Shown: positions 2,482 through 57,138 of the stretch, piece by piece
Position numbering within the stretch: the stretch's first letter is position 1
Layout of the letters: the number at the start of each line of letters is the position of its first letter
Source of the DNA: Siphlonurus alternatus
Lineage: Eukaryota > Arthropoda > Insecta > Ephemeroptera > Siphlonuridae
Assembly: GCA_949825025.1 (NCBI GenBank)
Contig: OX463781.1
Coordinates: forward strand, 33,617,221-33,681,220
Direction of reading: 5' to 3'
DNA length: 64,000 nt
Translations under genes and position numbers: made by a program
Notes under the pieces: model-generated
The model's input: only the letters and a program-made list of their open reading frames with translations
Told to the model about the DNA's origin: nothing
The model's database searches: none

Positions 2482-5400
2482 ACATGATCATGTCATAATT
2501 TAATATTCACAATTTTATAGAAAAGATACGGAATTTGATTTTTTTTTTTTAAAAAAAAAGAGAGCTATGGTTGTCAGTCATCTAAAAAAACAAGAATTTT
2601 ATCTTACTTCCTTATAGACTGCGACAAAACACCCAGGGATTCTTGAATAAAATCCTCTAGAGGAACATTCCTGCTGACCCAATGTGTACTGTACGGGCTA
2701 TATGGGTGAAATCGCTGCCTGCTGAGGCACAGCAAGTATACGATATAATGATAATTAATTTTGTCCTGAAATTATCATTTTAAATTCATTTTGTGTAATA
2801 ATATATAGACGTGTTAAAGAAACTTATTATTATTTTGCATGCACTAAAAAAAAACAAAAACAAGATCAAACATACTTATTAAACACTATCGTTCTATATC
2901 AGATTACCCCTATACGTTTAATCTGATAAATTACATGATAAAATAACACGTTAATATCGACTTATTTTTAAGATATAGTAGTTAGAGGAAGATAAACGTC
3001 CTAATCGCCGGTTGTTAAATCTTAATTTCACACTAAAAGAAGTTTGAGCGCGAGATCTTTTTATTTTTACTAGAGAGCAACCTGATATATAGAAAGTTTT
3101 ATTATAGCGGCTTGCGATGACAGATTGCCCGCGCTCAAGTAGTGTCGAGGAGATAATCTTTAAAAAATCAGACACTAGTCACAGTACTCCTCTCAACGCT
3201 TACACAGTGGAGCAAGTCAATAGAAATGTAGTTCATAACAAAAAAATAAATCTCATTCGCCTTATCGATTTCGTCACTTCATCGTCATTTCTAATGCACT
3301 CAAAACCACAACTTTGAGAGCCCGCGCGGTAGCCATCAAGCAATCGCTTATGGCGCGGATGTTTACAGCAAATTTTATATATATGACAAGACAAATAAAA
3401 AGTTATCAACATTTATTATTTTACTTTATTGCCACGTCATCGCTCGAGCGTGCATGAACATGTGTTAACTATAATCGGCTTGGAACGAGCGTGAATATAT
3501 TGCTGCTGCATGCTGCTTATATATTATACAAACTTATTACTTGGGCGTTTATAATATAAGTGGTAGGTAGGTTATAAGATGGATAATATTTTCTGTTCAA
3601 TTTCTCTCACAATAAAAGTGGGAGACGGTCAGGTATGTATAAGAACAGCTTTCTCCACACTGCCATGCAGTAAGTTAATGCTATAATATCTAACTGAGAG
3701 GAGGCATTATACATGTAGGCCATATATAACCTTAAAGTTGGTGTTGGGTCTAATATTAACACCAGTGCTTATTTTATACGCATACATGGATTAATGGTGG
3801 ATCCAAATTAGAGATTGAGCGGCCGGATACAGATTTTTCACACAAAACCTACTATGGTAGATTACTAATATTAATACCTCGATTTCCCAGTTGCAAAGTG
3901 GAAAATTAGCTTGCCAAAAGCATTGATTTTAGTGATTTCACGCGGTGGGCGACAAAATCACGATACGCAATTATTATAAACGTCAATTTGCACCAATGTT
4001 AGAAAATATATAGAGGTGGTATACGATTGTTTTCCATGTTGAAGCATTCTTGCCGACAATATAAAAGATATCGGAAAGTACACACAATGGTTAAGTCTTG
4101 TTTACACGTGTTGGTGAGAGACGACGACCATCACATCACGTGCGCACTGCAGCATTACACGCGACGGTGTGGTCGTGGTGAGAGGCCCAAATCCTCGGGT
4201 TATTAGTGAAAGTGTACCGGATCCCACAGAGTGACTATATATATTTTAATTTATACACCGTCTGTGAGAGGTGTTTGGTGAAAACTAGACAGTAATCAAT
4301 AAAATTGAATACAAAACGCTGCGGTTGTAATGAACAAATGACTATTTATATATTATATTATTATATATTATATAATAAGTGATGAGCCTATCACATAAAA
4401 TTTCCAGTATTCAGGGAGAAGTGACACGTCGCAAAAGAGCAGTAACACTATTTTATATTATTTAATATCACTGTCCCAAAAGCAATTTGATTAACGACAA
4501 CGAAACAATGAAACCTTCAACATTGACCATCAAATCTCTCATTAAGAACTAAAACGGTTGTTAAATTTATAGCATTAAAAAATAAAGTCTAAATTTTCTG
4601 AGACATAATATAGAATCTTATTTGTGTATACCCCTATATCGGAATACTGATCGTTCTAGTATTAATTTAAATTGTTAGTTTGCAACAAACCTATAACAGC
4701 CATGGCTTTTTGTAATTTTTGTCAGATATAGGACTGTATCCGAATAAATTCTCCTCCAAGTATACACAACGTTGATTCTTGATAATGTAATCACCTGTCA
4801 TGAAGTCCTCAGGTACGCATGCTAATCTCTGTTATCACAGTTATAGTCCGCGTGATAACACCTGACTCATCAGTGAATCAGATTTACGTGTGTTGACAAC
4901 ACACGACTGCTTTGGAATGTAACGGCAAAGTAATATATTATGTATTCAAACAGTGGGAAATGAGCAATTAAAAGTTAATTAAGTCAAATATTGCCCATGG
5001 CCGAAGTATTTTAAAACATATCCAAGTTCACATTTTTCATAACAAAATCAACAGCAGCGTTTGTCATTTTACCTTTTCCATGATTTTAAATTCTGTAACT
5101 TCTTTACTTCCATGATCTATGGTAATAAAGAGTTAATCAAAACGCATGAAAGGAACATCAACGACCGAAACATTTAATCTTATTATTTAATAGCAGCTCG
5201 CGTTATAATTATTGTTAACATATTATTGATCAATGTGTGTGAAAAGACGATTAATGAACAAAGATCGAAGTTGATGTCCTCATCGGGATAGCTGGAACGC
5301 ATGCTTCATTTGTTGAAACTGCAGCTCGGACAGAGAGGAAGAGATGCGCAATAATTGCAGTATTGAGGGAGGCAAAAGTGTCAAACATGGCAAAAAGAAT

Positions 5401-5866
5401 ATAAAAAGAAACTACAAAAATATACTCAAAAGTTGCATATACGGTGTACGGCATTTTCTGCTTCTTTTCGCATTAAATTTAATATAAAACTGATTTTTTT
5501 AAACTTTCTTCTTATCTATACACAATGTTTGCAATTTATGCTATAGTGGGAATCTATTTGCCATAATGATTGAAATTCTCAAATTTTGAATTGTCAAACG
5601 TTTTGCAATGCTTCAGCTCCGAATGAGCTGATGAGTGATGAGATCGATTGCACCTCAACAGTTACAATGTGCATTACTTTGGCTGGCGATTGCGCCAGAC
5701 GTGAACATCGCAACAACAATACAAACACACGGTGGCTAGTGGCGGTGCAGCAGTGAAATCAATACAGCTCCTTTGTAAGCGATACACTCCGAGCATCTCG
5801 CGAGTGCACTCAAACAAATTACCAAACTTTTTAAAAATAAACTTTCTCAATAGGAAAAAAACAAAC
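2482..5866. other. Non-coding, no gene seen
   Basis: AT-rich sequence with TA-rich tracts around 4340-4380. Short open frames (for example 3117-3317 and 5251-5454) show no domain, splice context or composition change. No RNA gene was recognised. Confidence 0.5.
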
Positions 5867-6388
5867 TACACTGAAAAAACAGTTGACAGTCTTTGAACTG
5901 TTAGTACAAATTCTACAGTATTCCTTTTAAATATAAACTAGTTATATGTTAAATTCAACAGTTCCAAACACTGTTAAGCGAGGACTGTCAAAATCAACAG
6001 TCTCTACCCTGTTAAATATCAATGTACGCAGTTGCATTGTAAGATTTAGCATTTCAATACGTAAAAGTAGCATTTTACTCTGTTAAAAAGGAAGTACGTT
6101 TTACGGTGTAACTTTTAACCGTGCGAAATTGTTGGAAATTAAATGTTAGAATATGTAAAAAGCAAAGTAACAGTTTGGCAATGTGTAAGCATACATTCAA
6201 CGTTAGAAACTTTGTAACATTTTGAAGTTTCAACGGTTACATTAATTTTAACACATCTACTCTGCAAAAATTAAACGTTTTACCACGTTATAAAATGACC
6301 GTTATTTCTGCGCGACAGACACGTTTTGGTCATTTCCTGTTTCAATCTGCAGGCGTCAGTTCAGTTCTTGTTGTGCTCTCTCTGTGAA

Positions 6389-6934
6389 ATGTATTCTGGA
6401 TCATCAACGGTAAGTTTAATTAATATTTTACTTCCTATAATGTTATGTCATTCATTGTTTTAATAATTGTGTTAATATTTTAAGACACGTGCGGCCAGCA
6501 ATACTGCGTGCCGGAGTGTTTTCGAGGCAAATTCACACGGCCGACGATATTCGAACCGTTGAGGAGCGATGAGGGCTATATAACGCTACACGTGCATATT
6601 TTTTGGTAAGTTGAAGGATTACTTGCCATAAATTTGCAATAATACTAATGCTAGAACTGTGCATTTTTATAGTTGACGTCCATGTGGGGATTATGCATCA
6701 GACTGAATGTCTAGCGAATGCAGTCCAGATTACAACCGCCCTTGTGCTACCACCACTTCCCCGAACGGCCATTCAAACTACCCAGATGGAAAGGAAACCC
6801 AGAATTGACCCTCAAGATGATGCTCCTTTACGTCAGTTGTTGAGTATAATAGTGTAAAAATAGAGTTCAAGTGTGACAAATTTCCATCTTCACCTCATTC
6901 ACAAAATTTATAATGTTTTTAATGTACAAATAAA
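6389..6934 (+). other. Possible intron-containing mini-gene carried in the TIR element
   Basis: A gene-like layout can be read on the plus strand. An ATG at 6389 opens MYSGSST and ends at a donor (ACG|GTAAGT, intron from 6410). An acceptor (TTTTAAG) ends at 6484. A second exon continues in frame for 25 codons to TGA at 6560-6562. A second intron with GGTAAGT at 6606 and TTTTTATAG ending at 6672 follows, then a GC-richer exon, then AATAAA at 6929-6934. The exon segments are more GC-rich than the rest of the element. The predicted product is only 32 residues and matches nothing I recognise. It may be the decayed remains of the element's own gene, a captured host gene fragment, or a non-coding spliced RNA. 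The splice sites are consensus-based guesses. Confidence 0.35.
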
Positions 6935-7139
6935 GTCATCTAATATATTGTATATTGTTTGAATTTTTTTAATTAAATATTTACTATAAATAAATTTTTA
7001 TTTTTTTTTAAATGAATTAACCCTTTTAAATCTTTATTCAGGATTAGCTTGTTTAGTTTGCTCCCTAAACATTATTTAATTATAATATTGTCAATAACTT
7101 ACTATATATTGCTTATGAAACTTGTAATATTTTTTGATG

Positions 7140-7331
7140 GAATGTTCGATAATATAGAAGATGGTGTATTACATGTTGATGCAATTGATCTATTTAATGC
7201 AAACAGTTTTTCTTTACAAGAAAACATTAAGTCCACTTCTACGAAATGGAACTTACGTTTTCTTGTATAAAGAAAAACTGTATGCAATAAATAGATCAAT
7301 TGCATCATCTAATACCAGCTTCTAGAACATT
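7140..7331. repeat. Internal foldback of about 190 bp
   Basis: The left arm blocks are AGAAG, GATGCAATTGATCTATTT, AACAGTTTTTCTTTA and AAGAAAAC. They return inverted at 7255-7331 (GTTTTCTT, AAAGAAAAACTGT, AAATAGATCAATTGCATC, CTTCTAGAACATT). The loop is about 30 bp around 7225-7255. It sits inside the CACTG element, downstream of its poly(A)-like signal. A transcript through it would form a long imperfect hairpin. Confidence 0.7.
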
Positions 7332-10600: not shown

Positions 10601-11776
10601 AATAGTGACGACGGCATTAATCATCGCCGCCATTTTTGGTCTGAGGTATGAGAATGACTGCAGCAGCCCGCCGAGGTGTTCATATGATAACGATATAATC
10701 TGTACGTATACATCCCTCTGACCAGTCGCTCGACTGCGGTAGTAATCGATATGCGAGACGTTTTCGCAGCACAGGGCCATAAATTTAATGTTTCCAAGCA
10801 AATTCGACTCTGTTATAAAAAAACAAATATGGCTTCCATACGATTTCACAGCAAGTGCGCTACATATACATGACAAAATCGGGCAGAAATCCACCACAAG
10901 ATTTTACAGCATTATTTGCGTTCAAAATGTTTAAGTTTGCATGCGAACTTACATACGGACATAGCTTGTAATAACTATAATGATGCATGCAATATATTTT
11001 TTTTTTTTCTTATTTCAAGACATGTTATTTATATGACAAACAATATAAAATGTATGGGCACGACAACATGTACATCATTAATCACGAATAACGTATCAAA
11101 AAACAACAAAACAGAACACAATACTATCCAACTCGAGGCTATACAAATATATTATGTATAACACAACAAAAGCAATAATCAGGAGCACTGAAAAGTTGCA
11201 GTGCATGCGTTTCTATTGAAACATTAAATTGTATCGATGTCTTCCATATAAGAATGGGTACACGTTTATATATATTTAGAGAGAGAGAGATCAGTCATAT
11301 TCTAGTCGATGGGGACACCCGAGTGTATATTCCTATACTGCATAATACTGCAAGCGTGAGATCTATATGTGTACTATATGTGTAATATTTGAAAGGAGCG
11401 TATGTGAAACGAAAACTTTCATCATGTATCATGCAAGTCTATATAAGAAAAATAAATTTGACAAATAAAAAGGTATCAAGTCTCCGACCAATATGACAAA
11501 ATCGTTATAGAAACACGTCTCACCCTATAACATGCAAGTGACCTAATGGTGTATGCGAATTATTTGTGACTATTACTGCAAAAGTCACCATCAGCTCAAC
11601 CCACACAATTACCTCCTCTGTCCTCGGCCAGCTAAATAGCACGATGAAATTATCTCACCATGATATTATATACACAAAGAGTTGGACTCTTGAGCTCTAC
11701 TTGCCACGAGCTGCATGCAATGAGCCACTATATATGCAGTTTCCGTGTAATATCTGCAACTTAGCCGCTATCGCTT
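7662..11776. other. Non-coding, no gene seen
   Basis: AT-rich sequence with no recognisable gene. It contains a perfect hairpin at about 8099-8122 (AAAGCCGTTT, 4-nt loop, AAACGGCTTT) and a (GA)n run near 11280. Open frames at 10512-10721 and 10556-10897 overlap on opposite strands and have no known domains. Confidence 0.5.
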
Positions 11777-11867
11777 TCAGTTATTATCAAACACTGAAGA
11801 CATAGCTAAGACATTTAAGTTAAAATATATAATTGGAGATATATTTGACACAAAAGACACCGTTTCT

Positions 11868-12608
11868 ATGGCACACTGTGTAGCAGAGGACTTACTTATG
11901 AATGATGGTATAGCTGTGACCTACAAGGATCGGTACGGCCAACTATTATACTTGAAAAATCAGTGTAAAAGTGTTGGTGAAGTGGCTGTACTACCTATTA
12001 GCAACTCAAATTATATATTTTATTTAATAACTAAACCATTGTCTAGAGACCTTCCTACATTCAGTGACATTGAAAAATCCCTAATTCAACTTCGAAATAC
12101 ATGTAACATACTAGGCGTCAACCACCTTGCTATCCCAAAAATAGCATCTGGTAAGGATCAAATGCCGTGGTTTAGTATAGAAAAAATGATATATCGTGTA
12201 TTCAGTAACACAGATATGCAAATTGATGTGTATGTTTTGCCTCGCAAACCCAGAGACATTACACCATGTAACACATTAATCTCAAAAAATAGTTTAGTGC
12301 CAAAGTTGAATGTGAGGAATTATCCATCATTAGGTGCAAAGCCCAGACGTGCTCACTCGCTGTCTCCAGGCTCCTGTCCACTTCTCTCCTCCCCCTCTGT
12401 TGCCCGTAAAAAAGCAAAGAGGAGGTACTCTGAAGGTATGTCTCGCACCTCTGCAGTGCAGGAGACGCACGCAATTGTAAGCACGCAAAGAGAGCGCCGA
12501 GCTGATAGTGACACCCAGCGTCCCCCGTCACAAACACCCTCTCGTCAAGATGACAGTCGACGGACGGCCACCTCATATCAACAAGGTCCTAATATCAGAG
12601 GGAGATAG
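11868..12608 (+). CDS. LINE ORF1: TARG1/OARD1-like macrodomain with basic Ser/Pro-rich tail
   Basis: The N-terminal part is a macrodomain of the OARD1/TARG1 group, enzymes that bind ADP-ribose and hydrolyse ADP-ribose from glutamate and O-acetyl-ADP-ribose. Family signatures run in order: GDIF just upstream of the first ATG, MAHCVAEDL (residues 1-9), MNDGIAV (11-17), GEVAVL (37-42), YLITK (52-56), PTFSDIEKSL (63-72), IPKIASGKDQMPW (89-101), and a final beta strand IDVYVL (119-124). Lys56 and Asp97 match the catalytic Lys84 and Asp125 of human TARG1 with the same 41-residue spacing, so activity is plausible. Gly-Ala in the ligand loop is Asn-Asp here. Residues 125-246 are Ser/Pro/Arg-rich with a nuclear-localisation-like RKKAKRR (180-186). 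No coiled coil, RRM or CCHC knuckle is seen. The domain starts upstream of ATG 11868 (open frame from 11751), so the true start is lost or non-AUG. Confidence 0.85.
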   Translation: MAHCVAEDLLMNDGIAVTYKDRYGQLLYLKNQCKSVGEVAVLPISNSNYIFYLITKPLSRDLPTFSDIEKSLIQLRNTCNILGVNHLAIPKIASGKDQMPWFSIEKMIYRVFSNTDMQIDVYVLPRKPRDITPCNTLISKNSLVPKLNVRNYPSLGAKPRRAHSLSPGSCPLLSSPSVARKKAKRRYSEGMSRTSAVQETHAIVSTQRERRADSDTQRPPSQTPSRQDDSRRTATSYQQGPNIRGR

Positions 12609-12882
12609 AAAGTGCGACGAGGTAAATATCAATAAAACTATTTCTCATGTGATTAAATATGTTAACAATACCCAACAAAATGAGACAAATGTTCCACTTA
12701 CCCCATCAACCAAATATATTTCCTCTTCCTCTCCTAAAAAAGTGTTGCTTGCTGAAGAAATACCTCTCCCTTCTTCAGATAGTGATTTGGATTCAAGTTT
12801 TCATTCTACAGACTCACCCCCCATAAGTCAGAAAACTAATGAAAATTTTTCTCCACATATCAACCTCATATCATTAATTTGA
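12481..12882 (+). CDS. LINE ORF1 C-terminal continuation in the +1 frame
   Basis: This frame opens after a TAA at 12478-12480 and overlaps the macrodomain ORF by about 125 nt. It runs to TGA at 12880-12882, 54 nt before the ORF2 start codon. The protein is Ser/Asp/Asn-rich (for example LPSSDSDLDSSFHSTDSPP) and has no recognised domain. Its most natural reading is the rest of ORF1, reached through a single-base indel or a ribosomal frameshift somewhere in 12481-12605. An independent small ORF is less likely, since no good ATG lies at its beginning. The first ATG in frame is near 12550. Confidence 0.5.
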   Translation, partial: ARKESAELIVTPSVPRHKHPLVKMTVDGRPPHINKVLISEGDRKCDEVNINKTISHVIKYVNNTQQNETNVPLTPSTKYISSSSPKKVLLAEEIPLPSSDSDLDSSFHSTDSPPISQKTNENFSPHINLISLI

Positions 12883-12935
12883 ATAAAGATAGTAACATTC
12901 ACCTCAATTATAAAAACAAACAATTTTACAAATTA

Positions 12936-15881
12936 ATGCAAATTAATATAAATGGCTTGAGTTCAAAAATGTCAACGCTAGAAATCTAAATAGAAAATGA
13001 AGATATTGATATCTTAATATTATCTGAACATGGCTTAAAAAGAGATTTAATAGAAAATGTATGCTTTAAAAATTATAAACTAGTATCATACTTCTCTCGT
13101 AAAAAGAAATCACGAGGTGGTGTTGCCATTTTTATTAGAAACAATTTGCACAGTAAACATGTATTTAAAATTTCATGTGTTGAATTTGTATTTGAATGTG
13201 TAGCTGTAAAAATTGAAATTTGTGGACAATATGTAACTTTTGTGTCTATATATAGATCTCCAGAACCAAAAAATTTAAAAGAGTTCTTTAATCGTTTCGA
13301 GGTGCTCCTGAGTAAAATTTTAGTGCAATTAAAATCCAATGATCATATTTATATAGGAGGAGATTTTAATATAAATATATCAAAGAATACATCAACCACC
13401 AAATCCTATATTGATATATTACAATCGTTTAATCTTCACATTATTAACAATGTTAATACTCGGGTGTCTTCTAAATCTTCCTCAATAATAGATCATGTAA
13501 TAACAAATCAAAGCAAAGAAATTCAATTTGTAACAAAAAGTACAAACATTACTGATCATAACTATACAGTTGTTTTCCTAGGATTGGAAAATATTGAACC
13601 AAATAAATCTATAAAAAATGACACAAGAATTATAAGTAAAAGATCATTTAATATTGCAAATAAAAACTTGTTTTTTAACTGTTTATTTCTTGAAAATTGG
13701 GTTGAAATCTTAAATTTAAATATTGACACAGAAAAAAAATGGGAATTATTTTTTTCTATATTAAAATATCATTTTAATAATTGTTTTCCTATCTTAAGGA
13801 AAAAAATTAAAAATATATTGAAAAAACCAAAATGGATCATTGATAACCCGTGGATAATTACAGAAGGTGACTATTTAAGAAATTTTCATAAATATGTAAA
13901 ACATACTGATAAATCTTTAATGCCAAAATACAAGCAATTATTATCAAATCATAAATTAAAAATAAAAAAAGCAATTCAAAATGACACTAATGAAATAATT
14001 GATAAATCACAAAACAAAATTAGAGCAGCATGGCAAATTATTAATAAAACTTCTAGGTTTAAGCAAAAAAATGTCACTGAAATCTCAGAGGTTTTAGTTA
14101 ATGGTAAAAAAATAACGGACCCCCAAGAGATATGCAACCAATATAATAATTATTTTATTAATTCAATTGAAGAAATTGTTGCAGAAAAAATTCCGGATCC
14201 AATTGATATAACATTAAATGAAAATATTGATATAAAATGCCAATTTGAATTTTATATGTCCACACCAGATATTATATTGAAAATTATAAATAGCCTACCT
14301 ACTAAAAATGCAGCGGGTCCAGACGAAATACCATATTTCTTAGTAAAATTTTGTTCTCACTTATTAGCTGTTCCACTATCTTATTTAATTAACGAATCAT
14401 TATATAACTCAATTTATCCAAGAGTATTAAAAGAAACATCAACCACCCCATATCATAAATCTGGCCCTAAAGAGATCATGTCAAATCATAGACCAATAGG
14501 AAAACAATCAGTATTTTCCAAAATTTTTGAGGGGTTTATAAAATTACAACTTGATGTCCACAGAAAAGAGAATAACTTGATAAGCAAGACGCAACATGGA
14601 TTTGTCGCTAGTAAATCTACTGAAACAGCAACTTTTGACGTATTAAAATCAATTTATCAAAATTTGGATAAAAAGAATAAATGTATTGGGCTGTTTTTTG
14701 ACATGCAAAAAGCATTTGACTGTTTAGATCCCCAGATAATATTAAAAAAATTAACCGAGATCGGGGTACAAGGAAAAAATCTGGATTTTTTTATATCATA
14801 TCTTACCGACCGTACGCAATATGTAGAAATAAAATTCAAAGATAATCATAATTCAATACATTCTGTAAAATCTGATAAATTAAGGGTTCGATTAGGGGTT
14901 CCTCAGGGTACAAAACTGGCCCCTGACCTTTATGGAATATCCACTAATGATTTGTCAGAAAAAGTATTAAGCGCTACAATAGGACAGTTTGCAGATGATA
15001 CTAGTGCTATTGTTTCAGCTAGAAATAATATAGAACTTGTTCAAAAAGCTAACAATGCAGTTAAAGAATTAGAAAATTACTGTATTCAAAATAGACTAAT
15101 ACTAAACCCTAAAAAGACTAATTACATTCAATTTCATACTCAAAGAGACATACCTGACCAGAATCCTTTAGTAAAATTATCTGATGCTAACATACAGTCC
15201 ACTTCTCAAACAAAATTTTTAGGTTTATATATAGATGAAACATTAAGTTGGAATGATCAAATGGATCATTTAAGGAAAAAAATAAACAGGACAAATTTTG
15301 CATTATATTCATTAAAAAATTTAGTGTCAGATAAGACCTTGTTGACTGTATATTTTGCATTTACATATTCTTTTCTTTCACTTAACTGTATTTTCTGGGG
15401 TAGCGATTACTCCAATATAAATAAAATGTTTATACTACAAAAAAGATCAGTTAGGATAATTAAAAATTTAAAACCACGTGAATCTTGTAGATCACATTTT
15501 GCTGATTTGGGTATTATGACAATGCCCTCCATATATATTTTTAATTTAATAATGTTTAGAAGGAAAAATATGGAACAATATACAGAAAATAAGGATATAC
15601 ATACATATAACACACGCAATAGAAATAAAGCAGTTGTACAATTTCATTCATCCACTAATTTTGAAAAAAGTCCATATTACCAAACATCAAAATTTTATGA
15701 TTTTCTTCCTGACTTAATGCGAAATATAAAAAATAATACATTATTTAAAAATATATTAAAAAAAGTGTTAATTTGTAAAGAATATTATGATGTAAAAGAG
15801 TATTTTCAATCTGATTATAAAATATCATGTACAGATATGCTCAAATTTGTTTCAAGAAAAAATATTGAACAGTATTCATAA
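12936..15881 (+). pseudogene. LINE ORF2: endonuclease-reverse transcriptase with one early stop
   Basis: From ATG 12936 the frame reads MQININGLSSKMSTLEI, then TAA at 12987-12989 (codon 18), then stays open to 15881, 981 residues in all. The APE-type endonuclease shows QININ (2-6), SEHGL (Glu31), GGDFNIN (Asp143 region), SIIDHVITN and TDHNYTV (Asp207, His208). The reverse transcriptase shows YHKSGP then NHRPI, TQHGF, FFDMQKAFDCLD, VPQGTKLAPDLYG, QFADDTSA (FADD at 685-688), LNPKKT and KFLGLYID. The C-terminal domain has LQKRSVRIIKNLKPRESCR and a further 140 residues, without RNase H or zinc knuckle. All catalytic residues appear intact. The protein would nick DNA and prime reverse transcription on the target. 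With the stop, only internal initiation or readthrough would give product. It is A+T-rich like the flanking DNA. Confidence 0.9.
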
Positions 15882-16116
15882 CAATGTACAAAAAAATATT
15901 AATAACAACAATGTAACAGTGTCAATCATGTGGTTCAAATCTTAATAAAAAATATTATAATATAATGTAAATACCTGAATATGACAAACTTCATTGTGCT
16001 TTGAATTATTGTTAGTATATAAGTCTTGACAAGATCTATGTTTGTATTGTGATTTAATCACTGTATACTGCCTAATGATCAAATAAATATTTCTAATTTC
16101 TAATTTCTAATTTCTA
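15882..16116 (+). repeat. LINE 3' UTR with TTTCTAA tail repeat
   Basis: A 208-nt AT-rich 3' UTR is followed by three perfect TTTCTAA units and a partial fourth (16090-16116). There is no poly(A). Several LINE clades (I, CR1, L2) end in short tandem repeats that serve as the reverse transcriptase recognition end, which fits here. Confidence 0.8.
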
Positions 16117-17459
16117 TACCAAACTCCTCATGATAACTTTATACGAAGAATACGATGGACACGTACATTTATAGTTAGAGCTTTATTGCGAGTGAAGTAT
16201 GAAACTTATGGCCACACGATACACGTGCTTCGTCCGAAAAAAATTTGAGGTGGACCGATTTGCACGTCTGGAGGATCACTGACGTTAAAACTTTATAGAC
16301 TTAAAAAATTCACAGTCCATCATATGTGCATCATTTTATCGTTATCACGAGTTACTTAACCACGAAAAAAATTGCATCTAGAGATCCAAGTTTTAGGTTT
16401 TAGCGTATATAAAACAGTATTATATATATATATACTCTTCTATCTATCCAGTAAATTATTATTATTATACTTAGAAAATAACACAAACTTTTAAGCAGTA
16501 ATTACCCGTGACGTGTCTTATAATATTATTTATTAATTTATTAATTTTCTCGCGAGTCTGTATAAATCATAATACAACGTAGAGGTAAATATAACTTAAA
16601 TAATATATACATCATGATGCTACCATGTGCTCTATACATGTATGTACCTTGTATTTAGAATGAGAAATTAATTATATAATTCGAATTTGGTCTATAAACG
16701 CTTATCTCAAAGTAAAAAAAAAAAAGAAAAAAAAATGCTATTCGATGCCTTATTTTATTTATTCCAAGAACATTTCTATGCAATGCAGTCAAGGCAGCAA
16801 AACGTCAACAAACGAAACATTTTTCTATTCTTATGGAATGTTTGATCTGATAAGCTATGCCATGGTTGTGAAACGGTTAGCTTCAATCTCACTACTTCCG
16901 GGTGCTGGCTCAATCAATTTTGTGAGTCGAACGGACTTGGTGCATATCACATGCAGTGGACTAAAATATATTATTTGTATATAAAATATACTGCCAAATT
17001 AATTTTATTTCCCTCCGGAAGTGCTATTTTTATGATTTGTATTACAGTATTGATATTTCTGTTATATATAAAAAATAATAGGTGTACGTACATATTTTAC
17101 TTTAGTTGCAAACTTTTTTAAAATTCATATAAAATTCGCACATCAACGCACTGCATCAGGTAGAAACATCACATTTATAGTTTAAACTTTAAACTGATAT
17201 TATGTTATTTTAAGTAATGCTGCTATAATTATCTAGTATAATTATATGTGTGAGCCAAGACAAACGGTGCACAAAACGAGGAGATAGCAGCACTTGATCA
17301 TAGCGCTGGGCTCGCTAACGTCTTCATGATAAGTGGAGCTCGAGACGCGTGATAAATATATCGTAAAGCCAGTAGTACTTATGCACTCGTTTACAACAGA
17401 TCATGCGCAAAGAAATTGGAGGAATATATATAGGTGCAAGAAGTCATTAAACTTATATA
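16117..17459. other. Non-coding, no gene seen
   Basis: AT-rich sequence with a TA run near 16420 and an A-rich stretch near 16713-16736. A second CCTCCGGAAGT site occurs near 17013. The open frame at 16745-16984 has no recognisable domain. Confidence 0.5.
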
Positions 17460-17600
17460 AGGGGCATTTACAAAGTCTTAAGGCCACATTTAGGGCTCGA
17501 TAATTTAAGACTAGAAATTTTGGGTCTAAAAAGCATGCCTAAAATCGGGCTTTAAATTATCGAGCCCTAAATGTGGCCTTAGGGCTTTGTGAATGCCCCT
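17460..17600. mobile_element. 141-bp foldback MITE, AGGGGCATT ends
   Basis: The left arm is AGGGGCATTTACAAAGTC, then TTAAGGCCACATTTAGGGCT, then CGATAATTTA. The complement of the right arm is AGGGGCATTCACAAAGCC, then CTAAGGCCACATTTAGGGCT, then CGATAATTTA. Arms of about 53 bp are almost perfectly inverted, with a 35-bp centre. TATA lies on both sides (17456-17459 and 17601-17604), giving a TA or TATA duplication. High arm identity suggests a fairly recent insertion. Confidence 0.8.
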
Positions 17601-20329
17601 TATAATAAATTAATTTTTACGGAAAAAAAACTTTGCGTAAAAATAATAATTCAATTTTAATGAAAAGCTTTGTACCCCGTTGCTTATAATTATATTGAGG
17701 CTTGGATAATATATTAACTTTTTTTTAGTGTATAATTCATCTACATAATTATATAATTTTATTACAATTCTTTATGTTCCTGACAAGATAAAATGTCACT
17801 CTACAGAAAAAAAAAAGGAATGTCAAATTGTTGGATTTGGTACTTTTTGTAAATCTCATCAATATGATTATCTCTACCTCCGAAAGAATGTATTAAACGA
17901 CCGGTGATCATGATCAACTTCAATTGTTGAATTTTATGAACAAGAAAGCGCAGCACAACAACAACAAAAAACAAGGCGAGCGACGAGTCATTTTTCTCTT
18001 CGCCGATCGCCGCAATGCGATACTAAATTTGCTAAATGTACGCAACACCATCACGACTAAATCACCGCTGGCGTGGAAATGTTCTGCCAATCAAATATGT
18101 GCATGCATATTGCAGCTAAACTGAATAATTAACAAGAAGTGCAATTAATTAACTTGCAAGAATCCAAAATTGATTTGCGATTTGTCACCAAAAAGTGCGC
18201 ATATAAGAGTAAGAGCACTACGAGGTCTTCTTGGTATGCACATATAAGCTTAATTCATTATAGCGTATATATAAGGAATATATAACGTGAAAATCACTTT
18301 TTTTAAAACTCTTAATATGAAGCGCACTTACAATCTGAAGTGTAGTTATCCATTTAATTAGAGTATATAATTCTAGTTATAACACTTATGTTCGTTGCGA
18401 AGGTTTGCTGCTATGCGGGACTCCGTACTCGCGGGCGCGGTTCGCAATCAATCACCGACCAGAGAAAGGGGCGTGGCTCACGTAAACAACCTCGCACATT
18501 CAGATGTCCCACTGGACGCTCTGGTGTAATTGCTGCTCAGCTTTTTAACAACTTGTTGACTTCGTTTTTTACAAATCATCATGAATATACAAGTGAATGA
18601 AGTATACAATGAAAAGGCACTAAAAATCTCATATATACGAATATAATTTGCAAGGTCCTTAAGCTTTCAACGATCAACATCGATATCAACATTGTTAATT
18701 ATTAAGATAATTATTGACAAATTTGACGTAAATTGTTCTTTACGAAACCACACATAAAGATGCTAATTATGTTAGTAATAATATAGCAATTAAGTATTTT
18801 CTCACCACACTTCAGTTTTTTGTGTCAAGTTTTTTAATAGTGAAGTTGCCAATAGTAAAATACACATCATTATGCATAGTGTCACTGCTAACATGTAAAC
18901 ATGACGTTATACATTTAAAGATTGGCACGTGCGAATTTTCAGCTCCGCGTACTTTACGAGTAGCGAAAATTGTGGAAGTGCACAAATATACGCAGCTAAT
19001 GGTACAATGTAATAATTATATAATATTATTCCATTACACACATCATTTCCCCGTACTGCCATTTTTCTTTTTATTGCCCGTGTATCTTTTATACTTACAA
19101 ATAATATTAACAATATTTATGTTCTGTATGTATACTGTATATAGTATACTTCGAGATAGTATTATAAGACAAATTAAAGTAATAAATAATATATTAAGGT
19201 CTTGATGGAGGCTCGTATCAGAGTTGCGATAAGATGTACGAAATAACTTTCTACAATACTCATTGCTTTGCTAATATAGAAGTTTGGTATACGTAATCAT
19301 TTTATATTATATAAAAACTCAATTTATCATGATAAATTACTTAAAAGGCAGCTGCACGCATTTTCCAAATCTCAAGCTTAGCCATTCATTATACGAGAGC
19401 TAAACGAAGGAAGCTGTTGTTAAAAAAAAAATAAAATAAAAAAAGTTGCACGCGTGAGGTGGGCGTGTCCGTTAGCGGTCGATATTGAGCGAGTGCGACC
19501 ACTGGCTCGGCCGCCCGCAGGGAACGATCGTGCGGTGGCCGCCAGCCGAGGTGCTCCGCCGCTCGGGCTCGCACAACTACCGGCCGTTCAGCGATGATCG
19601 CCGCCGGGAAACGATAGAGCGGTCGCCGCCAACAAATCAGCAGCAGCAGGTATGGAATAAATGGTAACCAGCAGCTGCCTGCTACTGTGAAAATATTAGG
19701 AGGAGAGTCCTTTCACGTCAAAATCTTGCGTCATCTTACGTAATAATTATGAAACTTCACAGCTTTGTTTTGCCTCTCTCCCAGCAAGCAAGATTATCTC
19801 GATTACAACAAGAGAGTGACTTTGCACTAAGAAATACGAGACTCAGCACGCAACTTTATGTACAAAACTAGAATTGCGATACGAGCCGCGCGGATATAAT
19901 AATATATAATAGTTGTTAGTTTATGTAGAAGCGATGGCATTACATCGAGTCACTCATTCATAATATGATACTTGTTTACAAAACACATAACCATGCAGCT
20001 GACACGAAGTGCTGACATTAAAATTTGCTGTATATATACCTGGTCTCTATATATATATTATAATATACGTGCGTTCACATAATGCTGATGAGAATGATTC
20101 ATTTATATTTTTTAATCACGAGCAAGACTGAATACTTATGACGTCTATTACATGACGTATCTAGAGAAGGGACTTTTGTTACTGCTGCGTCATGCTATGA
20201 CGTCACTCAGGCCCAGGATCGATTCCCGACCGCGCCTCTAGGCTGCTCATGTGGACGCAGACAGGACGGGTGGTTCTGATTGATTGTTTGGTCCGTGAGC
20301 ACGCCGTGGCAATGAAAACAAGGAATAGC

Positions 20330-54918: not shown

Positions 54919-55288
54919 GTTGGGTCCTGGTATGTTGGGAGGTATATTATAATATATACGACACTACCAGTTGGGCCCTAGTATATCGGGAGGTCCGACA
55001 CCACTCGTTGGGCCCTGATGGTATATCGGAAGGTATGACACAACTCGTTGGACCCTGGTATTATATGTCGGGAGGTTTATATACGACACTACCAGTTGGG
55101 CCCTGGTATACCGGGAGGTAAGACACCACTCGTTGGGCCCTGGTATTATATGTCGGGAGGTTTATATACGACACCACTCGTTGGGCCCTGGTATACCGGG
55201 AGGTAAGACACCACTCGTTGGGCCCTGGTATACCGGGAGGTAAGACACCACTCGTTGGGTCCTGGTATATCGGGAGGTATGACACCAC
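54919..55288. repeat. Minisatellite of nine units, about 35-51 bp each
   Basis: Each unit starts GTTGGGCCCTGGTAT and continues CCGGGAGGT and a GACAC block. Short units of about 37 bp (GGTATACCGGGAGGTAAGAC) alternate with long units of about 48 bp that carry TTATATGT and TTTATATAC insertions. Two short units near 55190-55255 are identical, showing recent amplification. The three minus-strand frames through it (Pro-Gly-Pro rich) are repeat artefacts. Confidence 0.92.
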
Positions 55289-56490: not shown

Positions 56491-57138
56491 AAAGATTTTC
56501 TGACACCCAAAATTTGAGACTGTATTTTTTTTTTTTTTTTTAATGTTAGAAGCCAGTGTCTTTCAGTTAGACGACATTAAAAAATCGCATATATTTTTCA
56601 GAAAAAAGTCTGAGTGAACATTATGGGTGTTACGAGAACTATATATATATTTTTTCTCTCCAGAATTTCAACGGTAAACTTCAAAGTAATAATTCTGAAA
56701 GTGTTTTGCACATTTGACTTTTAAGCAAACAGTTTTTTTTTTTAATTTTTATTTTTACGAACAATCCTCGTTTGATTTTTCAGAGAAAAATCATGAGATT
56801 CCTATCTAAATTAAAATGGGATCAAACTTTTGTTTGTTTTTTTCTTTCTAAAAAGCTAACTTCGGTTAAAGCTAAATGTGCAGAATACTTTCAGAATTAT
56901 TAATTTGCAGGCCACCACTAAAATTCTGGAGAGAAAAAATAATACAGTTCTCATAAGACCCAATAATGTTAAACGACGCGTTCATTCGGACTTCGATATA
57001 CTTTTCTGACTAAAAATATACAATAAAACAATTTTTTTATATATATTTTTGTTCAACTGAAGGACACTGCATGACTTCTATATAATATTAAGAACAAACA
57101 AAAACAATCTTTGCTTTCTTGGGGGTCAAAAAATCTTT
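56491..57138. mobile_element. 648-bp foldback element with arms of about 300 bp
   Basis: The outer blocks AAAGATTTTCTGACACCCAA (left) and the complement of the right end AAAAGATTTTTTGACCCCCA match. They are followed inward by AGTGTCTTTCAGTT, GTCTGAGTGAAC, ATTATGGGT, GAGAACT, TTTTTTCTCTCCAGAATTT, AATAATTCTGAAAGT and TGCACATTT, all inverted on the right side in the same order. Arms are diverged and carry small indels, meeting near 56800. No ORF or target-site duplication is visible. Transcription from either side would give long double-stranded RNA. Confidence 0.8.

Follow-up and report, generated by a model that had tools for sequence, protein, structure and literature searches.

A stretch of 64,000 nucleotides from Siphlonurus alternatus (Ephemeroptera; contig OX463781.1, positions 33,617,221 to 33,681,220 of the forward strand), referred to here as the window, carries a copy of a long interspersed nuclear element (LINE) whose first open reading frame (ORF1) encodes a TARG1/OARD1-type ADP-ribose macrodomain. 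The assignment of the macrodomain to ORF1 of this LINE is strongly supported. An original prediction, made from the letters of the window alone, had placed a macrodomain ORF1 at 11868-12608; an open frame is present at those coordinates, and the borders of the mobile unit, found by comparison of copies across the genome, enclose both ORFs of the element. The macrodomain ORF1 is a real and well-supported ORF1 type of LINE and apparently an unreported one: among the titles listed in searches of the open-access literature, none was found to describe a macrodomain within the ORF1 of a LINE. One candidate report, PMC5434184, was rejected, as the phrase in the passage concerned is part of the gene name MACROD2.

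The assembly searched comprises 102 contigs and 455.7 Mb. Among the matches listed, the window macrodomain was found at 99% identity in at least three other places. Two of these, L055 on contig C2 and L056 on contig C5, are 100.000% identical to each other across 5,008 bp. Because this identity is shared on different contigs by copies with unrelated flanks, the macrodomain lies within the mobile unit. In L055, a 513-codon ORF1 (2670-4208) overlaps by 37 nt, in a different frame, an ORF2 that is open between stops at 4172-7207 and intact, with Pfam matches to Exo_endo_phos (3.6e-9) and RVT_1 (7e-25). L057, the remaining copy at 99%, is also truncated, with an ORF2 divided between two frames. 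As the original prediction implied, other copies of the same ORF2 were accompanied by the macrodomain ORF, in the two full copies, in one more truncated copy and in related families.

The same borders recurred in four families (L055/L056, L059/L060, L061/L062/L065 and L067/L068), in which the longest shared stretch starts 231-261 bp 5' of the ORF1 ATG and ends at the repeat tail, with unrelated flanks outside it. In a fifth family (L071/L073/L074) it starts approximately 190-250 bp 5' of the ORF1 ATG, the outer 5' border being less certain. Copies in the window and at L057, L058, L063, L069 and L072 begin at varied points within ORF1 and all reach the 3' repeat tail of their partner. The 5' and 3' ends of the element as printed are unlike each other, no dedicated search for long terminal repeats (LTRs) having been made. 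ORF2 matches lay downstream on the same strand at 20 of 20 macrodomain loci examined and in the window, in pieces at L066 and L074. Five further loci were picked for their short open frames: ORF2 remnants were found at L075, L077 and L078, no remnant was seen in the stretch examined at L076, and L079 is a probable host gene. At L073, an antisense macrodomain fragment (oriented 1553-1245, 38.5% identity) lies approximately 1.6 kb 5' of the macrodomain of that locus and perhaps belongs to a second element.

The pairing of macrodomain and ORF2 was also counted in two macrodomain searches, in which the best 150 of 306 and the best 150 of 313 candidates were scored; all counts given here are among the matches listed. 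The macrodomain ends exactly 1,025 nt before the ORF2 match in 30 of 30 cases in the L081 family, and 1,031-1,079 nt before it in 52 of 66 cases in the L080-type family. When all 150 places of the first search were used, 22 of 51 ORF2 places and 67 of 120 N-terminal parts of ORF2 were paired, and 89 of the 150 macrodomains had an ORF2 in either ORF2 list. With 61 of these places, 22 of 51 ORF2 places were paired, including 19 of the 27 that are N-terminally complete; with 102 of the 150 places of the second search, 85 of 120 ORF2 N-terminal parts were paired. Controls for the count with all 150 places of the first search gave 0 and 0 pairs on the opposite strand and 0 and 1 after a shift of 100 kb. 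By our count, 142 of the 150 macrodomain matches listed in the first search lie in open frames of at least 400 codons, in a table that favours well-kept copies.

Fold, catalytic pair and purifying selection

The original prediction of a TARG1/OARD1-type domain was borne out by comparison with solved structures, in which human TARG1 was the best match to the window ORF (phmmer, 4j5q, E 5.2e-26, residues 1-124). An AlphaFold2 model of the window macrodomain, built with four homologues as input, had a predicted local distance difference test (pLDDT) score of 71-97 in ten-residue blocks over residues 11-160, with 13 of 15 blocks at 84 or above and a disordered tail. In a Foldseek search with this model the best solved match was 4j5s_C, TARG1 with ADP-ribose (root-mean-square deviation 1.0 A, template modelling score 0.97 by target length, 42% identity). 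A Pfam Macro search, which had been proposed as a check, was too weak to identify the domain: PF01661 scored the window ORF at 13.3 bits, under the gathering cut-off of 22. The basis of the macrodomain assignment is therefore the match to TARG1 together with the fold. Six intact ORF1s scored 11.9-22.1 bits with the same profile, L081 alone being just above the cut-off, and P0123, a protein of the same layout described below, scored 17.9.

The two residues that had been noted for having the spacing of the catalytic pair, Lys56 and Asp97 (K87 and D128 in P0001, less a 31-residue offset), align with Lys84 and Asp125 of TARG1 and, like them, are 41 residues apart. The text of PMC7050489 prints TARG1 residue 125 as Glu in the passage concerned; the solved sequence has Asp. 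The pair is kept in 20 of 20 aligned sequences, 14 of which are LINE ORF1s of this genome, the rows having been picked to represent families and outgroups. Both positions are likewise invariant in a set of eight ORF1s, where identity to the first sequence is 29-58% for the other seven. Taken together, sequence comparison and the predicted structure confirmed the window ORF as encoding a TARG1-type ADP-ribose macrodomain with the catalytic Lys/Asp pair.

Selection was estimated by Nei-Gojobori codon comparisons between subfamilies, leaving out the near-identical pairs L061/L065 and L067/L068, which have almost no synonymous change. The rough ratios of nonsynonymous to synonymous change (dN/dS) were 0.106, 0.076, 0.092, 0.171, 0.090, 0.146 and 0.186 for the macrodomain, with a further pair at 0.106, at a macrodomain dS of 0.69-1.97. 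The N-terminal part of ORF1 gave 0.33-0.77, the C-terminal part 0.41-0.61, and ORF2 0.14-0.18 (in one comparison from the endonuclease part only). The macrodomain ratio was below that of both ORF1 flanks in 8 of 8 pairs and below that of ORF2 in 5 of the 6 pairs compared. The comparison among copies that the original prediction had called for thus finds the macrodomain under stronger purifying selection than the other parts of ORF1, and the domain is held by purifying selection across several subfamilies.

Across families, the parts of ORF1 follow one order. A PPP start, which reads MQDMSVPPP in the window family, is followed by a helix-like stretch, then by a WR and, after it, an NRFxxL-like motif; the macrodomain comes next, and last a long tail with basic and acidic parts. 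Open frames of 772 and 789 codons also contain glutamine-rich stretches and 15-residue tandem repeats. In the ORF1 tails of L080 and L081 the 15-residue tandem repeats read TTPGEESGLASVNDG, and a second frame is open there too, as an arginine-rich repeat. The claim that the macrodomain stands in place of the usual ORF1 domains held in Pfam searches of six ORF1s, in which no RRM, CCHC, Transposase_22, PHD or esterase domain was found; Macro alone was matched (E 0.22 to 1.6e-4), together with weak matches below cut-offs. No CCHC or paired-cysteine patterns were found in seven ORF1s. A model of P0123 had a 36-residue helix at residues 24-59 (blocks at pLDDT 63-76), disorder, the macrodomain and disorder again, with a mean pLDDT of 52 and low confidence outside the domain. 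Outside the macrodomain, ORF1 is accordingly modelled as a long N-terminal helix with disordered flanks, a predicted arrangement.

The copy in the window

The window copy is a 5'-truncated LINE (full length 5,008 bp) at 11770-16116 on the + strand, with borders placed where identity to L055 and L056 gives way to unrelated flanks. It is 99.72% identical to these copies across 4,347 bp and differs from L055 by eight substitutions and one 4-nt insertion; one of the substitutions sits in the stop codon at 12987-12989 that breaks the window ORF2. The macrodomain ORF at 11868-12608 is a fragment of ORF1 and not a whole protein, because the truncation falls inside ORF1 at 11770 and the insertion ends the frame early. 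Both ends given in the original prediction had to be revised. The ATG at 11868 is an internal codon, with the first beta strand, YIIGDIF, in frame upstream, and the stop at 12608 is caused by the frame-shifting insertion at 12559-12562 (+), identified by comparison with L055, beyond which the remainder of ORF1 can be read in the adjacent frame as far as 12882.

All further features of the element are on the + strand. The ORF1 remnant, without its N-terminal part and with its frame broken near the 3' end, occupies 11770-12605, as judged from the open frame at 11751-12605, its translation and the 513-codon ORF1 of L055. Within it, the macrodomain spans 11817-12239, from the phmmer match to 4j5q, the AlphaFold2 model and the Foldseek match to 4j5s; the codons of the residues equivalent to TARG1 Lys84 and Asp125 are at 12033-12035 and 12156-12158, each an invariant alignment column in the 20 of 20 chosen sequences. 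The basic cluster RKKAKRR that had been noted in the tail was found at 12405-12425, in a disordered part, and possibly serves in nuclear localisation or nucleic-acid binding; the corresponding region of the L055 ORF1 has a net positive charge. The C-terminal part of ORF1 lies in the neighbouring frame at 12508-12882 and ends where ORF2 begins, the same residues being in frame in L055. ORF2, comprising an APE-type endonuclease and a reverse transcriptase, runs from 12843 to 15881 with the single stop at 12987-12989 and an overlap of approximately 37 nt with the end of ORF1, as identified by RVT_1 and by L055. Its presence downstream on the same strand had been predicted, and RVT_1 matched it in the window with an E value of 5.5e-25. 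The reverse transcriptase core, with an FADD motif, is at 14469-15230 (PF00078 on residues 442-695 of the window frame 13146-15878). The 3' tail consists of four tandem repeats of ATTTCTA at 16089-16116, and copies of the L055, L059 and L061 families have similar repeat tails at their 3' ends.

Ten other ORFs of the window had no matches in Pfam, and the whole window had none in Rfam. A tandem array with 37- and 85-bp periods, with approximately eight copies of the 37-bp unit, is present at 54957-55288, and inverted repeats, 40-74 bp long and separated by short spacers, resembling miniature inverted-repeat transposable elements or hairpin elements, are present at 56648-56941, 17446-17614 and 7177-7307. 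Elsewhere in the assembly, G000:C102:3483-4823 encodes COX1 with 11 in-frame TGA codons and is probably from the mitochondrial contig of the host, with TGA read as Trp.

Possible roles of the macrodomain

At a probability of roughly two in three, the macrodomain of this ORF1 acts as an eraser of ADP-ribose in the ribonucleoprotein particle (RNP) of the element or at its nicked target, with the ORF1 protein multimerised by its helix and holding RNA through its basic parts. In such a mechanism the ORF1 protein would multimerise through the N-terminal helix, and the LINE RNA would be held by the basic disordered parts. The macrodomain would hydrolyse ADP-ribose esters on Asp or Glu residues of proteins, or on phosphorylated RNA or DNA ends. 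This erasing would take place within the particle of the element itself or at the nick in the target, and would keep host marking from stalling, tagging or repairing away the retrotransposition intermediate. PARP2 reportedly has a role at human LINE-1 insertion sites, on which the literature search listed no paper. Human TARG1, as described in passages of PMC7050489, removes ADP-ribose from Asp and Glu esters and from the terminal phosphates of nucleic acids, and is also able to detach entire polymers; the same passages suggest that ADP-ribosylation of RNA may aid the recognition of transposon-derived or viral RNA. According to PMC4441479, human LINE-1 is restricted by ZAP, a member of the PARP family that is also credited with recruiting active PARPs.

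The original prediction had proposed that the hydrolase undoes PARP signalling at the nick or binds ADP-ribosylated chromatin. On our analysis this is plausible, but no less likely is that the domain acts on the RNP, its RNA or silencing that depends on ADP-ribosylation. As the site of the eraser, chromatin would be slightly less likely than the RNP or its RNA ends. The ORF1 macrodomain suggests that these LINEs may counter or exploit host signalling that also acts against viruses. A broader proposal, that this is a LINE lineage with an ADP-ribosyl hydrolase as its core ORF1 enzyme and with host-mark removal (at the RNP, RNA ends, silencing factors or the nick) built into its life cycle, falls a little short of even odds. 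If true, it would be the transposon counterpart of viral macrodomains, and host ADP-ribosylation would restrict LINEs here.

A number of observations weigh against the ORF1 assignment or the eraser role. No clear target-site duplications were found at L055, L056, L057 or the window copy, with nothing above chance; elements of this kind may have no target-site duplications. Among the matches listed, 35 of 120 and 29 of 51 ORF2 places and 14 of 66 L080-type macrodomains were unpaired, and no listed macrodomain was found upstream of 4 of 34 L081-type ORF2s (at least 99% identity) or of 8 of 27 N-terminally complete ORF2s; the unpaired ORF2 counts are from the best-scored matches only, and truncated copies occur. 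In the comparison of L067 with L071 the macrodomain dN/dS of 0.186 exceeds that of ORF2, 0.165, and the ratios are rough throughout because sequences recur between pairs and dS is in many cases about 1 or higher. Retention of Lys84 and Asp125 could be explained by ADP-ribose binding alone, and the holding of RNA by ORF1 is a guess, since no RNA-binding domain was found in it. Passages of PMC4441479 also report that the zinc fingers of ZAP suffice for L1 restriction, its own PARP domain being inactive, and that overexpression of PARP1 did not inhibit L1 in human cells.

The strongest of the other explanations, though an unlikely one, is that the macrodomain is a reader, which, by binding repair foci or ADP-ribosylated chromatin, guides the RNP to DNA that is nicked or open. 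The basic cluster in the ORF1 tail would suit this role, and PHD-bearing LINE ORF1s are proposed, in a passage of PMC4120745, to target the genome. A pure binder need not retain both Lys84 and Asp125, however, and all 20 of the sequences chosen have the two, including those of families whose whole ORF1 is only approximately 30% identical to that of the window family. Slightly less likely still is an anti-silencing function outside the RNP, in which the macrodomain would strip mono-ADP-ribose from chromatin silencing factors (for example KAP1-like proteins bearing the marks of a SIRT6-like enzyme) and so keep the element transcribed. ORF1 proteins are usually RNP components, which counts against this. 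The tail basic cluster, possibly nuclear-localising, is consistent with it; human L1 is silenced by SIRT6, which mono-ADP-ribosylates KAP1 (Van Meter et al., cited in a passage of PMC4695847), and TARG1 removes mono-ADP-ribose (PMC7050489, in part). TARG1 is described there for Asp and Glu esters and nucleic-acid ends, however, and the source passage on SIRT6 does not say which linkage that enzyme forms.

It is improbable that the domain acts instead on O-acetyl- or O-acyl-ADP-ribose, with a lipid or metabolite role parallel to that of the type IV SGNH acetylesterase. TARG1 is active on O-acyl-ADP-ribose esters too, according to a passage of PMC7050489 and the names of PDB entries, and other LINEs pair an acetylesterase with a coiled coil and have no structural RNA-binding domain (PMC3905857, in part); on the other side, SGNH esterase was unmatched in six ORF1s in Pfam, and the same passage of PMC7050489 includes ADP-ribosylated proteins and nucleic acids among TARG1 substrates. 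Domain capture by mobile elements is common, and a captured OARD1 might be carried passively without function, but this is highly improbable given macrodomain dN/dS ratios of 0.076-0.186 against 0.33-0.77 elsewhere in ORF1 at the dS range given above. A host OARD1 gene or retrocopy standing by chance 5' of the LINE is ruled out, even though the host seems to own an OARD1 (L079), by the 150 scored macrodomain matches per search, the ORF2 downstream at 20 of 20 loci, the constant spacing and the enclosing borders, and by L079 itself, where a splice-acceptor-like sequence is present and the 3 kb examined contain no ORF2.

Less is understood of ORF1 than of the rest of a LINE, and an ADP-ribose eraser in this position, if true, would be a further ORF1 type with a defined and assayable chemistry. 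The system gives a direct route to the question of whether ADP-ribosylation marks or restricts retrotransposons, which arises both from work on ADP-ribosylated RNA (PMC7050489) and from the silencing of L1 by SIRT6 (PMC4695847).

Origin, distribution and relation to known systems

L079 contains a macrodomain exon with the splice-acceptor-like sequence and TARG1-like RMGAGIA and GCGLD motifs, with no ORF2 within the 3 kb examined; its match contained one TAG in the first search and none in the second. Judged by eye, it is the probable host OARD1, separate from the LINE copies, and unlike it the LINE ORF1 has an unbroken frame and an ORF2. In a macrodomain tree the 14 LINE rows did not form one clade (fewest changes 3) and showed no particular grouping with L079. 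Constraint of the LINE macrodomains to one clade was not rejected by the approximately unbiased test (p-AU 0.265; 0.389 with P0123), and the tree may fit single or repeated capture. The ORF2s of six macrodomain LINEs form one clade with support of 100 among 61 reverse transcriptases (FastTree; the ORF1s of some of these are unknown), and both the macrodomain and the reverse transcriptase trees split L055-type from L067/L070/L071-type elements. Capture of the macrodomain therefore appears to predate the split of these families.

A first protein search yielded one match among 335 candidates, and a search with an ORF1 profile yielded three among 6,937, of which P0123 has the same layout and two are unlike LINE ORF1s. 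P0123 (492 residues, from another data set) shares the start motif, predicted helix, macrodomain and tail of the LINE ORF1, which makes it probable that this ORF1 type also occurs outside this genome; its contig, of 2,669 bp, shows no ORF2. Viral contigs scanned with ORF2, the macrodomain and an ORF2 alignment yielded no relative. A macrodomain was found in 0 of 38 LINE-like contigs within prokaryote assemblies, a count that says only that the trait is not general, since some of these contigs have no ORF1 region. Two other proteins were observed with TARG1-like macrodomains. P0124, a beetle protein (Phaedon cochleariae, 937 aa), differs from the minimal human protein in that a long region rich in Arg, Asp and Asn precedes the domain. 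P0125 (metagenomic, 364 aa) has it after an N-terminal part that by eye resembles an LTR-retrotransposon Gag, with no Gag match in Pfam, and is possibly an independent capture by another retroelement.

From its look the window LINE may belong to the Jockey superfamily. The survey PMC4120745 (Metcalfe & Casane 2014) sorts LINE ORF1s into five structural types (I-V), following Khazina & Weichenrieder, and the Jockey-superfamily and CR1/L2-like elements it describes resemble the window LINE in having two overlapping ORFs, an endonuclease and a reverse transcriptase, 5' truncation, a constant short-repeat 3' tail and an ORF1 that evolves faster than ORF2. The ORF1 types of the Jockey superfamily differ from that of the window LINE, in which the domain is a macrodomain. 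The type IV ORF1 of ZfL2-1, with its SGNH acetylesterase, has in common with the macrodomain ORF1 an enzyme domain, the lack of a recognised RNA-binding domain and perhaps a helical part, which in the macrodomain ORF1 is a low-confidence prediction (PMC3905857, in part), and differs from it in enzyme family and chemistry.

The LINE macrodomain has the sequence type, fold and Lys84/Asp125 pair of human TARG1 (OARD1, C6orf130); unlike TARG1, it is encoded by a mobile element and is flanked by an N-terminal part with a predicted helix and by a charged tail that is disordered. ALC1-like macrodomains are described in a passage of PMC7050489 as minimal, without N- or C-terminal extensions. Epsilon-like endogenous retroviruses of fish are another case of retroelements with a macrodomain ORF (PMC4977317, citing Basta et al. 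2009); there, unlike the LINE ORF1, it is an extra ORF of a retroviral element; its relation to TARG1 is not stated in that passage. The viral macrodomains of Salmonid herpesvirus 1, Kadipiro virus and alphaviruses are, like that of the LINE, carried by genetic parasites, but these are not non-LTR elements. The alphavirus domains are distant from the window macrodomain (13-18% identity). Kadipiro virus VP8 is the top viral structural match of the window macrodomain (42% identity, E 2.8e-19), and P0002, a protein of Salmonid herpesvirus 1, contains a TARG1-like macrodomain with 36% identity and the Lys/Asp pair kept. Beside viruses and endogenous retroviruses, macrodomain capture is now also found in a non-LTR element.

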